NCBI RefSeq assembly: GCF_004104075.1
Contig: NZ_QOVK01000010.1
Coordinates: 1-64,000 of the forward strand
Source of the DNA: Leeuwenhoekiella polynyae
GTDB taxonomy: Bacteria > Bacteroidota > Bacteroidia > Flavobacteriales > Flavobacteriaceae
DNA: 64,000 nt
Direction: 5' to 3'
A model generated the notes under the pieces. The model had not been told where the DNA came from, did not search any database, and worked only from the letters and a program-made list of their open reading frames with translations. Shown here piece by piece: positions 7,998 to 60,362 of this stretch (positions are counted from its first letter, which is position 1; every line of letters starts with the position of its first letter). The translations under genes and the position numbers were made by a program.

Positions 7998-8338
7998 GGA
8001 ATCGTCATTGAAAAACTTCAATATTAAAAATTCATACATCAAGCGTGCTTGCTGAGCTTGGTCGAAGTACAGTCGGGATATTCATCGTACTATCTTTTTT
8101 ACATCGCCCAAAAAAGAATGAAACATCAATAGATGTTGGAATTATTCAAATCTCCGATAGGAGATCAATCAACACCTCATTAGAAGCTATAACTCCTATT
8201 CATCTTTCTGTTCATTTTTTCCATTGATACGGCAAAGCATGTCTTTGAGCGAGTTGATGCGGCTGGGAACCAAAAAAATCTAGGCTTACATGAGCTTCTC
8301 TAAATTTTTTGCTCCCTCCGCTGCATGCGCTTAACTCG
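7998..8338 (+). repeat. Right array, first spacer/D segment of the structured repeat family
   Basis: This gene-free stretch begins just after the DUF3037 gene. A widespread bacterial intergenic motif type ('GCTGAGCTTGGTCGAAGTA') lies at about 8048-8070. A hairpin of class C, TCTTTTTT / AAAAAAGA around 'acatcgccc', follows near 8092-8117. From 8146 to 8338 the sequence is repeated at 8672-8864 with a constant offset of 526 bases and few mismatches. The last part ('ggcttacatgagcttctctaaattt') is the reverse complement of the left-array module D. Confidence 0.8.
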
Positions 8339-8500
8339 GCCGCTGGCCTCAGACAGAACCGCCTGCTACGCTAAGCTCACCGCAAATTTGACGAGAACCT
8401 CCTGATAGGCCGATACTGGCGTTCTATTAGAAATTAGATAGTTAGAAGAATGAAACAATACGTATTCATACCCGAAGGGTTTAGTTTCCTTTTGGTCAGT
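8339..8500 (+). repeat. Module D of the repeat family, right copy 1
   Basis: Contains GGCC-gct-GGCC near 8338, 'aggccgatactggcgttcta' and 'attcatacccgaagggttta', all reverse-complement matches to module D at 548-827. It leads directly into hairpin A at 8504, so module order is D-A-B-C, as in the left array. Sequence identity to the left copies is partial, with blocks of good match separated by diverged parts. Confidence 0.7.
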
Positions 8501-8503
8501 ATA

Positions 8504-8646
8504 ACGACAGCATCCCGTTAAGAATTCCTGAAGCCTTGGAAGGAATTTAGGGATGCTGTTGTGGTTTTTGCGGTAGCAAAAAATACCTATCCAAAAGGCG
8601 TCGTTTCTTTTGGTTCGTTTTCTTTAGACGAGTAAAGAAAATGAAC
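8504..8646 (+). repeat. Hairpins A, B and C of the repeat family, right copy 1
   Basis: Hairpin A: outer stem 8504-8516 with 8550-8562 (13 pairs, one G-T), containing ACAGCATCCC and GGGATGCTGT; internal loop 'gttaag' (8517-8522); inner stem AATTCCT (8523-8529) with AGGAATT (8541-8547). Hairpin B: TTTTTGC (8565-8571), loop ggta, GCAAAAA (8576-8582). Hairpin C: 8613-8625 with 8634-8646, 13 pairs with one G-T. The same three hairpins recur at 9165-9306 with different stem sequences. Confidence 0.8.
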
Positions 8647-8864
8647 AAACATGATTAGAAGTAAGTCTTACTCAAATCTCTGATAGGAGATCAATCAAAA
8701 CTTCATTAGAAGCTATAACTCCTATTCATCTTTCTGTTCATTTTTTCCATCGATACGGCAAAGCATGTCTTTGAGCGAGTTGATGCGGCTGGAAACCAAA
8801 AAAATCTAGGCTTACATGAGCTTCTCTAAATTTTTTGCTCCCTCCGCTGCATGCGCTTAACTCA
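8647..8864 (+). repeat. Spacer S and truncated module D, right copy 2
   Basis: 8672-8864 repeats 8146-8338 with few mismatches. The preceding part ('gattagaagtaagtcttact') also matches the left array on the opposite strand near 375-405. After 8864 the module D sequence breaks off into unrelated sequence, so this copy is truncated or rearranged. Confidence 0.75.
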
Positions 8865-9164
8865 GCCGGCGCAGCGACCTCAATTAAAACTATTTGTATG
8901 CGAGCGAGCTGTTAACTTCTATTCATCTTCTCTTTCTTTTTTGCATCGCCCAAAAAAGAAACAAAAAACGCTAGGCTCACAAGACGGTATCGTTAAATTT
9001 ATCGTTCGCTGCACTGCATGCGCTTAACTCGGCCGCTCTGGCGGCCTCAAACAGAACCGCCTGCGACGTTACGCTCACTTCAAATTTAACGATACCTTCT
9101 TGTAGGCCGTTTCCAAAATCAGAACTAAGAATTCTATTCTTTAGCCTTCTTTTTCTTCAGTATA
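8865..9164 (+). repeat. Diverged module D with a long closing stem
   Basis: A class C hairpin, TTTCTTTTTTG with CAAAAAAGAAA around 'catcgcc', lies at about 8931-8960. It is followed by a diverged D module in which GGTATCGTTAAATTT (about 8985-9000) can pair perfectly with AAATTTAACGATACC (about 9078-9093), a 15-base closing stem. Inside it GGCCGC-tctg-GCGGCC forms a smaller hairpin. In the copy at 8281-8420 the corresponding arms are different sequences that pair imperfectly. No gene was recognised. Confidence 0.65.
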
Positions 9165-9306
9165 GCAAAAAGTCCCCGTTAAGAATTTTCGAAGCCTTGG
9201 AGAAAATTTAGGGGACTTGTTGCGGTTTTGCCCCTAAGGGCAAAAATACCTAAGAAAAAGGGTCTTTTCTTTTGTTACTTTTCTTTGGACAAACAAAGAA
9301 AAGTAA
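9165..9306 (+). repeat. Hairpins A, B and C of the repeat family, right copy 2
   Basis: Hairpin A: GCAAAAAGTCCCC (9165-9177) pairs with 9211-9223 (12 of 13), internal loop 'gttaag' (9178-9183), inner stem AATTTTC (9184-9190) with GAAAATT (9202-9208). Hairpin B: TTTTGCCC (9226-9233), loop ctaa, GGGCAAAA (9238-9245). Hairpin C: TTACTTTTCTTT (9275-9286), 8-base loop, AAAGAAAAGTAA (9295-9306), perfect. Loops and linkers match 8504-8646 while stems have changed on both sides. The rest to 9379 holds nothing I recognise. Confidence 0.8.
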
Positions 9307-9379
9307 GGAGGAGTCTATAGAAATTCTAAGATGCAAATCGTCACCAAGAAATTTTTTAAGATTAAAAGAATGACCAGAA

Positions 9380-11074
9380 TTACTTTTCAAACTCCAGCTG
9401 AAACAACGCCACCCCCTGTCTTGGGAGATCTAAGCTTAACTCCAGATTTCCGTCTGTTACGTGCATCCAAACGGGAGAAGTAAACAACTGCAGCTGCCCG
9501 GCCTGCTCTAAGGCTTTGATCTGTGCCGGAGTTGGATTTTCCGGCGAACCCATTTCTTTATAGAGCGAATACGAATTACTGAATTCCTGATCTACCCGGT
9601 ATTGATTGACCAGAACTTTTTCAGCTGGAATGTTTTTAAGAGTAATCGTGACCGGACTTGCTGCAACGTCCAGATCGTCGCGATCATGGTAATTAAAGAC
9701 CATAACCGATGCGCCATCCTCACCTACCGAAGCCAAGGCGTTTACATCGGGATTATCGCGGACACTTTCTGACCGGACTTTTTTATAATCATACTCCAGA
9801 TCTCCCGAAACGGCTACCTGCGTATCGTGCATCATCCCAAACATTCTAAACACATTGAGTACCGGTTTATCTACTCCGTTTGTCGCCATATCTCTAAAAC
9901 CGGCATACCAGGCCTGATCTTCAAATTCAAATCCCCAGGTCACAGCTCCTTTCAGGTTTACCCCATACGCCCGTGCCAAATCATACTTACGCGCAAAAGA
10001 TGCAGCGGTATAACTGCTGTACATCGTTCCGTTTCTATACGCATTTTCGGGATAATCCTCTTCCGAACATGCCGCACAGCCTTCAGGGTCAGACTCCCCA
10101 ATAATGATGGGTAAATCTTTCAGTGTAGGATAGGAAGCCACCACCTCAAAGCCTTTAGCCAGATCGTTAAGCTGCGAACCCATATTCATCTGAATATGAC
10201 CGTCAACCAACTTAGGGCTTCCTTTTGCGTGGTAGGTAATAAAATCTAGCGGAGCTCCTGTTTCTCCGGTTGCGTAGTTTTTACCTGAAATGATATGGTC
10301 TAAAAAGGTGCGTAAAAATGCTTCGGCTTTATCCCAGCCCGGCCCGGTTGTTTCGGGTCCGCCCATTTTCGCCGTAGGCAAAGCTCTTTTAACCGCATCA
10401 GCCGTATAATCGTAATGTTTGATGTATTCTTCGGTCGTGCCCCGCCAGTAGCCAATGTTGGGTTCATTCCACAATTCCCAATACCAGCTTTCTACTTCTT
10501 CCTTTCCGTAGCGCGCTACCGAATGCACTACCCACTGGTACACCAATTCTGCCCACTTGTTGTAATCGTTTGGCGGATAGGCCCATCCCGTATAAATATC
10601 ATCATAATCTGCTCCCGGTTTCCAATGATGCCGGTAAGGCTGAGGCTTTGTCGATAAGGCTTCGGGCATAAATCCTATTTGCGCCAGCGGCTTCATCCCG
10701 CGTTCGATATAGGTATCAAAAATCTTGTCGATAATCGTCCAGTCATAAATAGGATTTCCATTTTCATCTTCAGTATAGGCATTGGTTGAACCCCATTTTA
10801 AAGCAGCTTCTCCATCGCCCGTAACCAGCAAACTATGAGCACGCACATACACCGGAACTTTACTCAACTCCGAAATTTCAGTTAGTAATTTTTTACCGTC
10901 CTTCATGTACGTATAGTTGGGCTCATCATACCCCCAAAACGCCCAAATGGGTTTCAACTCGCCTAATTTGGCATTAAAATCCACCCCTATTTCTACAGGT
11001 TGAATAGTATCATACTGGGCAAATACACTTGAAAAACTACAGACGAAGAGCAGCAAGAAGGTAAAGGTTTTCAT
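9380..11074 (-). CDS. Secreted GH39-like glycosidase (beta-xylosidase-like)
   Basis: A 564-residue exported enzyme. The start at 11074 gives a clean signal peptide ('MKTFTFLLLFVCSFSSVFAQ'). The body is a (beta/alpha)8 barrel: the acid/base Glu204 is in 'WYWELWNEPN' and the nucleophile candidate Glu327 in 'IIIGESDPEG', the layout of clan GH-A family 39. 'GGPETTG' and 'FITYHAKG' are typical neighbouring strands. A C-terminal beta domain (about 430-564, 'VMVFNYHDRDDLDV') completes the usual length. Beta-xylosidase activity is the family's common one, but Bacteroidota members vary. The adjacent CE1-type esterase on the same strand fits hemicellulose side-chain and backbone trimming. Confidence 0.82.
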   Translation of the reverse strand: MKTFTFLLLFVCSFSSVFAQYDTIQPVEIGVDFNAKLGELKPIWAFWGYDEPNYTYMKDGKKLLTEISELSKVPVYVRAHSLLVTGDGEAALKWGSTNAYTEDENGNPIYDWTIIDKIFDTYIERGMKPLAQIGFMPEALSTKPQPYRHHWKPGADYDDIYTGWAYPPNDYNKWAELVYQWVVHSVARYGKEEVESWYWELWNEPNIGYWRGTTEEYIKHYDYTADAVKRALPTAKMGGPETTGPGWDKAEAFLRTFLDHIISGKNYATGETGAPLDFITYHAKGSPKLVDGHIQMNMGSQLNDLAKGFEVVASYPTLKDLPIIIGESDPEGCAACSEEDYPENAYRNGTMYSSYTAASFARKYDLARAYGVNLKGAVTWGFEFEDQAWYAGFRDMATNGVDKPVLNVFRMFGMMHDTQVAVSGDLEYDYKKVRSESVRDNPDVNALASVGEDGASVMVFNYHDRDDLDVAASPVTITLKNIPAEKVLVNQYRVDQEFSNSYSLYKEMGSPENPTPAQIKALEQAGQLQLFTSPVWMHVTDGNLELSLDLPRQGVALFQLEFEK

Positions 11075-60275: not shown

Positions 60276-60362
60276 ATTTAGAGAAGCTATCTGCAACGCA
60301 ATGTTATCAGATAGTAATTTATAAATTATAACCGGGGTCGGGTACCCCAAAAATTAATTTTT
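60276..60362 (+). promoter_or_regulatory. Structured 5' leader of rpsP
   Basis: Two stems lie between the promoter and the rpsP start: CTATCTG (60287-60293) with CAGATAG (60308-60314), loop of 14 bases, and GGGGT (60334-60338) with ACCCC (60344-60348), loop 'cgggt', 14 bases before the ATG. Such a layout is typical of autogenous ribosomal-protein leaders, in which the protein binds its own mRNA. Leader motifs for bS16 have been proposed in Flavobacteria, as I recall; I cannot test the match here. Confidence 0.5.

Follow-up and report, generated by a model that had tools for sequence, protein, structure and literature searches.

FX, a dispersed structured element of the Bacteroidota with a putative triple-helix pseudoknot tail

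Background

In the telomerase RNA pseudoknot of Kluyveromyces lactis and human, the U-rich loop 1 lies in the major groove of stem 2, and its run of U·A-U is broken by a single C·G-C. Intergenic repeats of the BOX/ERIC type are dispersed and folded, some of them lie in operon gaps, and they can carry internal insertions. REPs are tagged palindromes of 20–40 bp (PMC3733652), and tracrRNAs of Cas12e and Cas12k are described as forming three triples with the crRNA repeat (PMC11246509).

Here, we investigated a repeated intergenic block at positions 8504–9306 of a 64,000-nucleotide stretch of Leeuwenhoekiella polynyae DNA (contig NZ_QOVK01000010.1, positions 1 to 64,000), referred to below as the window. 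A preliminary description had seen in this block two copies of a three-hairpin unit (hairpins A, B, and C) with conserved loops and covarying stems. The block consists of two copies of a ~165-nt element, named FX here, that is found in many Bacteroidota and appears not to have been described before.

Results

Layout of the FX copies in the window

Two full elements, each comprising an outer stem P1, hairpins A and B, and a pseudoknot tail, lie on the forward strand at 8486–8650 (copy 1) and 9147–9311 (copy 2); they score 170.6 and 170.2 bits against model R1, and both are among the 56 rows of that model. A third copy on the reverse strand (410–569) scores 80.4 bits, is not a row of R1, and matches the tail descriptor given below; it had been likened to the other two through hairpin B, which it indeed shares together with the tail, but it is a relative from a second subfamily with a different hairpin A.

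Inside P1, a short stem P1b, hairpin A (P2), and hairpin B (P3) meet in a three-way junction, and an H-type pseudoknot made of stems S1 and S2 follows directly on the 3′ side of P1. In copy 1, P1 (8488–8495/8591–8598) is part of the minimum free energy fold and stands outside the covariation counts; its letters differ in copy 2 (9149–9157/9252–9260). P1b has 4 bp (8499–8502/8583–8586 in copy 1; helix 1 of the covariation test). Hairpin A, which spans 8504–8562 in copy 1 (helices 2 and 3), is built from an outer stem (8504–8516/8550–8562; copy 2, 9165–9177/9211–9223), a GUUAA internal loop, an inner stem (8522–8529/8541–8548; copy 2, 9183–9190/9202–9209), and a GAAGCCUUGGA loop, and is followed by hairpin B (helix 4) at 8565–8571/8576–8582 and, in copy 2, at 9226–9233/9238–9245. 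S1 joins a strand of the linker to the loop of hairpin C: in copy 1, CGTC at 8599–8602 pairs with GACG at 8627–8630 (helix 5), and in copy 2, GTC at 9262–9264 pairs with GAC at 9288–9290. Copy 1 has the pyrimidine linker L1 (TTTCTTTT, 8604–8611), which matches in parallel the purine arm at 8634–8641 of S2, that is, of hairpin C (helix 6). S2 has 14 pairs including one G·T in copy 1 (8613–8626/8633–8646) and 13 perfect pairs in copy 2 (9275–9287/9294–9306), all of these features being on the forward strand.

All stems quoted for hairpins A, B, and C in the preliminary description recur in the window at both copies, with the pair counts of hairpin C raised from the 13 and 12 given there. The three hairpins are thus real, but the whole unit is larger and adds P1, P1b, the pseudoknot, and the match between linker and purine arm. 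Compared with dinucleotide shuffles, the fold energies of copies 1 and 2 correspond to z-scores of −6.58 and −6.32, and none of 200 shuffles was as good in either case. The minimum free energy structure of copy 1 recovers P1 and hairpins A, B, and C, and the single-sequence fold of copy 2 places the inner stem of hairpin A off register.

A weak relative in reverse orientation (8926–9120, reverse strand; R1 19.7 bits, E 0.021) is an inverted repeat forming a long stem-loop with an FX-like U-tract/hairpin tail. It sits tail to tail with copy 1 and its U-tract matches a purine arm; S1 was unsupported by eye. A second structured repeat, present at 8112–8342, 8638–8868, and 8926–9120, is arranged tail to tail with FX, giving units of ~530–660 bp and arrays.

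Covariation of the fold

Covariation, G·T and A·C cells, and triplex matches were all counted on alignment A1, which holds 56 non-redundant FX copies. From 142 full-length candidates, 67 were less than 90% identical to one another; 12 of these were dropped (nine that carry insertions or in which the 3′ arm of hairpin C is replaced, and three that belong or are close to the second subfamily), and copy 1 of the window brought the total to 56. Pairing is possible in 93.9% of 2810 cells. Both partners vary in 39 of the 51 pairs, and the 529 cells with a double change count sequences rather than evolutionary events. The covariation score of 0.500 compares with 0.161 ± 0.006 in shuffles, none of 500 reaching it, and with 0.089–0.147 when partners were slid along the alignment; the shuffled control ignores kinship, and the slid control retains it. 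P1b pairs in 99.6% of its cells, and three of its four pairs change on both sides; the pseudoknot stem S1 pairs in 91.1%, with both-sided changes in all four pairs. Because the MAFFT alignment displaces P1 by one base, this stem is absent from the counts and its covariation was judged by eye. The stems do not vary independently, and the earlier interpretation of covarying stems with conserved loops as a sign of selection on structure holds: FX has a conserved fold, and this fold is under selection.

A linker that matches the purine arm

Read in parallel, L1 (typically UUUCUUUU) and the purine arm of S2 (AAAGAAAA) agree as U·A or C·G at 421 of 425 core positions over the 56 copies. Linkers re-paired with the arms of other copies gave a mean of 380 and a maximum of 392 matches in 2000 shuffles, and the antiparallel comparison gave 331. 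The C and G positions of linker and arm are in agreement in 54 of the 56 copies. As 39 of the 56 belong to one linker/arm class, the evidence for a triplex rests on the copies that depart from it. Where the arm G has moved (AAAAGAAA, two copies), the linker C has moved too (UUUUCUUU), and where it is lost (six copies), linker and arm are both all U/A; these eight departures agree in the moved or lost C/G, and two others (L096 and L149) disagree. L1 thus changes together with the S2 purine arm, as would be expected of a pyrimidine-motif major-groove triple helix. Triplex DNA, too, can arise from pyrimidine mirror repeats, which counts against our main explanation of FX as an RNA.

A descriptor of the tail without fixed letters (at least 4 pairs in S1, 5 in the triplex, and 8 in S2, with S1 and triplex together at least 11) matched the three FX copies and nothing else in the 64-kb window, and had no match in 544 kb of samples from two carriers or in 3-base-chunk shuffles of the samples and the window. 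It also matched 11 of 19 class-level loci, which had been found with model R1, a model without S1 or triplex pairs but with the consensus letters of those columns; one of two matches at locus L378 lies outside the element and is possibly due to chance.

Strand and nature of the folded molecule

On the forward strand of FX, the 56 copies hold 129 G·T cells versus 27 A·C cells. As G·T on one strand is A·C on the other, this excess identifies the plus strand as the folded one. Energy alone cannot choose the strand, because copy 2 folds about as well on its reverse strand, compared with the shuffles of that strand (z −6.42), as expected of hairpins. The preliminary description had spoken of RNA or single-stranded DNA (ssDNA); such a structure is supported, and the G·T excess, in combination with the pseudoknot and the match between linker and purine arm, favours RNA over ssDNA, so that the folded plus strand likely acts as RNA.

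Distribution and related families

FX is a dispersed element. In a DNA search that scored up to 13 candidates in each genome, it was found in 18 of 60 genomes, its own included, and at least 118 stretches in named genomes, chiefly of Flavobacteriia, matched a pattern for the P2 core. Among the matches listed are Kordia, Leeuwenhoekiella, Arenibacter, Maribacter, Winogradskyella, Dokdonia, Salinimicrobium, Mesonia, Lutibacter, Gillisia, and others, as well as a few Saprospiraceae and Lentimicrobiaceae bins and one bin labelled Hyphomicrobiales. The FX contig of the latter (L262, bin SP168) is probably a mis-binned flavobacterial contig. Model R1 counted at least 16 copies in genome G000, at least 26 in each of G010 and G011, at least 2 in G001, and at least 37 in Kordia algicida (G062), and none among the best 150 of thousands of candidates scored in G007, G008, and G009. 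In a class-wide draw with 7 candidates scored per genome, at least 21 of 395 genomes, the own genome included, matched R1 at an E value of 1e-4, 7 of them below 1e-10.

The Rfam search suggested in the preliminary description was carried out with Rfam 15; at the gathering cut-off, it gave no match to the element in the whole window, in 8000–9400, or in 12 related loci. An S16-Flavobacteria ribosomal protein leader (RF03138) lies at 60325–60358 of the window. No FX match was obtained in IMG/VR with exact patterns or in plasmids and phages with blastn, and no published description was found in the open-access literature, a weak negative given that scope.

Several class-level loci carry another 5′ domain, in which P1 encloses GTGCGAAC...GTGCGACA, before an FX-type tail. 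This family, FX-III, is dispersed in five of seven genomes of its own genus and has compensating changes in P1, P2, S1, and the linker (18 rows, read by eye). An insert of ~50 nt was seen by eye at several places of FX-I, and a similar one interrupts the S2 3′ arm of both FX-I and FX-III; the loci concerned are L331, L333, L319, and L330 of K. algicida, L075, L077, L029, and L198, and L410 and L414.

Gene context

Among 190 copies with two readable neighbours after removal of duplicates (47 more lie at an edge), 60 occupy convergent, 26 divergent, and 104 codirectional gaps. Over all genera, the codirectional copies are sense in 59 cases and antisense in 45 (p 0.20), and this lack of a clear sense bias counts against our main explanation. 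At eight loci of Winogradskyella and Ichthyenterobacterium, FX occupies operon gaps and is sense to the upstream gene (8/8) and to the downstream gene where readable (5/5); three bio-type loci look orthologous, so that at most six of the eight are independent. Proteins scanned at six of these loci identify the neighbours as PaaA/PaaB (L258), PaaD/enoyl-CoA hydratase (L190), enoyl-CoA hydratase/3-hydroxyacyl-CoA dehydrogenase (L156), thiolase (L162), 2-oxoacid dehydrogenase acyltransferase (L160), and AAA_26/class-III aminotransferase (L212), the last of which we take to be bioD/bioA; by eye, L182 and L222 are the same place as L212. On contig L199, paa-like genes are accompanied by four strong copies in sense orientation and one weak antisense match. 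A sigma-70-type scan of 8000–9400 returned two promoter-like sites and one terminator-like site compared with 2.3 and 1.5 in shuffles; since such sites are no commoner than in shuffles, the scan identifies no promoter or terminator of this type at the block, which also counts against our main explanation.

Mobility

In Kordia, FX lies inside units, commonly of 293 bp, with the terminal inverted repeats (TIRs) ACGTSAGTTCGAYRT. We collected 48 TIR pairs (47 from Kordia and one from Dokdonia, two sites appearing twice, with alternative ends). The FX tag is present in 35 of these pairs, and the other 13 are units with the same TIRs without it. With 63 length/offset settings tried, perfect target duplications at the tips were found for 6-mers in 15 of the 48 pairs versus 2.1 expected from mismatched flanks, and for 7-mers in 10 versus 0.28. 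The Kordia duplications are AT-rich and 6–7 bp long; the TIR pair in the Dokdonia bin flanks an FX copy and has no perfect duplication. In K. algicida, size classes of 293–414 bp result from insertions of ~48–50 nt and ~23 nt within FX. Kordia FX is thus the body of a miniature inverted-repeat transposable element (MITE). Two further K. algicida units (L332:1349–1538, 190 bp, and L335:1038–1273, 236 bp) have the same TIRs around another palindromic body and no FX.

An interrupted ISL3 transposase gene of K. algicida (L316:1223–2979) adjoins an exact TIR of the FX-MITE, its other end being weak, and we infer that Kordia FX is moved in trans by an ISL3-type DDE transposase. ISL3 (PF01610) matches occurred in 4 of 21 genomes searched, and no TIRs were found at the window copies, where the best candidates agree at both in 9 or 10 of 16 letters, like many other Leeuwenhoekiella copies. 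In the one comparable case of a Leeuwenhoekiella orthologous site without FX, 76 unrelated bases stand in its place. These three observations count against our main explanation. An FX-rich Leeuwenhoekiella genome (G006) has short fragments of the ISL3 transposase C-terminus at eight scattered places, possibly MITE ends.

Two other routes of spread were considered and rejected. A tyrosine recombinase ORF has an FX copy at its 5′ end (L106), but relatives of this recombinase occur in 13 of 13 genomes, carriers and non-carriers alike; and the DNA between clustered copies at five loci consists of ordinary genes and a duplicated lipoprotein-like gene rather than integron-like cassettes. At L073:6165–8891, the lipoprotein-like gene is doubled between FX copies, as if through recombination between repeats.

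The genomes were also scanned for the nucleases that use TnpB or IscB guide RNAs: a TnpB/Cas12f-type domain (PF07282) was above the cut-off in none of 23 genomes, with positive controls matching, and PF14239 matched neither the genomes nor the positive controls.

Discussion

The most likely function of FX is that of an RNA acting in transcripts and carried by non-autonomous transposons. We lean, with some reserve, towards a miniature mobile element whose structured plus-strand RNA core would work inside the transcripts that contain it. A putative binding site for a partner common among Bacteroidota would be formed by the invariant junction together with the GAAGCCUUGGA loop and the GUUAA internal loop, as the invariance of these loops suggests, and the triple-helix tail may act as a rigid end that withstands unwinding or 3′–5′ decay. 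In gene gaps, such a tail could make an insertion tolerable, or even useful as an intercistronic processing or stability element.

Selection might instead act on folded ssDNA, with a RAYT-like HUH/Y1 transposase recognising the top strand in its folded form, in the manner of REPINs and IS200/IS605. A RAYT-like gene lies ~0.8 kb from one copy (L104), with another ORF in between, and RAYT homologues or fragments occur in 9 of 18 genomes with FX compared with 8 of 42 without (Fisher p 0.027, uncorrected for kinship), which also means that half of the FX genomes lack RAYT; Y1 (PF01797) was found in three of six carriers searched. FX clusters share one orientation in L. blandensis, and 31 of 37 copies in K. 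algicida lie on one replication strand (binomial, from a reading of a noisy GC-skew map), but no replication-strand rule emerged from the likewise noisy map of L. blandensis. With TIRs and target duplications in Kordia that bear the signature of a DDE enzyme, and a tolerance of G·T that suits RNA better, we consider an ssDNA element unlikely. Least probable of all is a mere passenger, a MITE whose palindromes seem conserved because the copies are young: the Kordia MITE structure with its target duplications and the nested insertions in many copies would fit, whereas 529 double-sided changes over many genera, invariant loops, and a covarying pseudoknot need long selection, and the tail is also seen behind a second kind of 5′ domain.

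Copies in Winogradskyella and Ichthyenterobacterium that are sense and 5′ of the next cistron, and the four strong sense copies among the paa-like genes of L199 (beside the weak antisense match), are what a riboswitch or attenuator controlling the next gene, for instance in phenylacetate or biotin operons, would produce. Yet the gaps used differ between species, other genera have FX beside unrelated genes, and convergent gaps outnumber divergent ones (60 to 26), so that such a cis-regulatory role appears improbable, more so than an ssDNA element. Beyond the preferred reading of FX as a transcript-borne RNA, a bolder possibility, less likely than not, is a superfamily of bacterial non-coding RNAs with swappable 5′ domains and a common telomerase-like triple-helix pseudoknot tail, spread as or with transposons and recruited between cistrons in operons such as paa and bio.

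If FX acts as an RNA, the Bacteroidota harbour a widespread structured RNA unmatched in Rfam 15, with a bacterial triple-helix pseudoknot backed by covariation. FX would then provide a natural test of what triple-helix tails do outside telomerase, and of the reason for a transposon to keep an RNA fold under selection.

Each of the known systems shares part of this picture. Kordia FX resembles ISL3-type MITEs in its TIRs, its AT-rich target duplications of 6–7 bp, and its common length of 293 bp, but its body is a deeply conserved fold and the mover was found only as the interrupted K. algicida gene. REPs and REPINs with their RAYTs are likewise intergenic and palindromic and at times form tail-to-tail pairs and arrays; FX, at ~165 nt with P1, a junction, and a pseudoknot, differs from the 20–40 bp GTAG/CGTC-tagged palindrome of REPs, and its link to RAYT is weak. 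BOX/ERIC-type repeats share dispersal, folding, operon gaps, and insertions with FX and are set apart, by description, in sequence, host, and the pseudoknot tail. The tracrRNAs of Cas12e and Cas12k also are RNA scaffolds with a triple helix, where the three triples are reported to involve the crRNA repeat. FX differs from telomerase RNA in being bacterial, without telomerase or template, and in a triplex predicted from covariation alone, yet the two tails are alike in being H-type pseudoknots in which a U-rich loop 1 runs along stem 2 with one C·G-C interruption.
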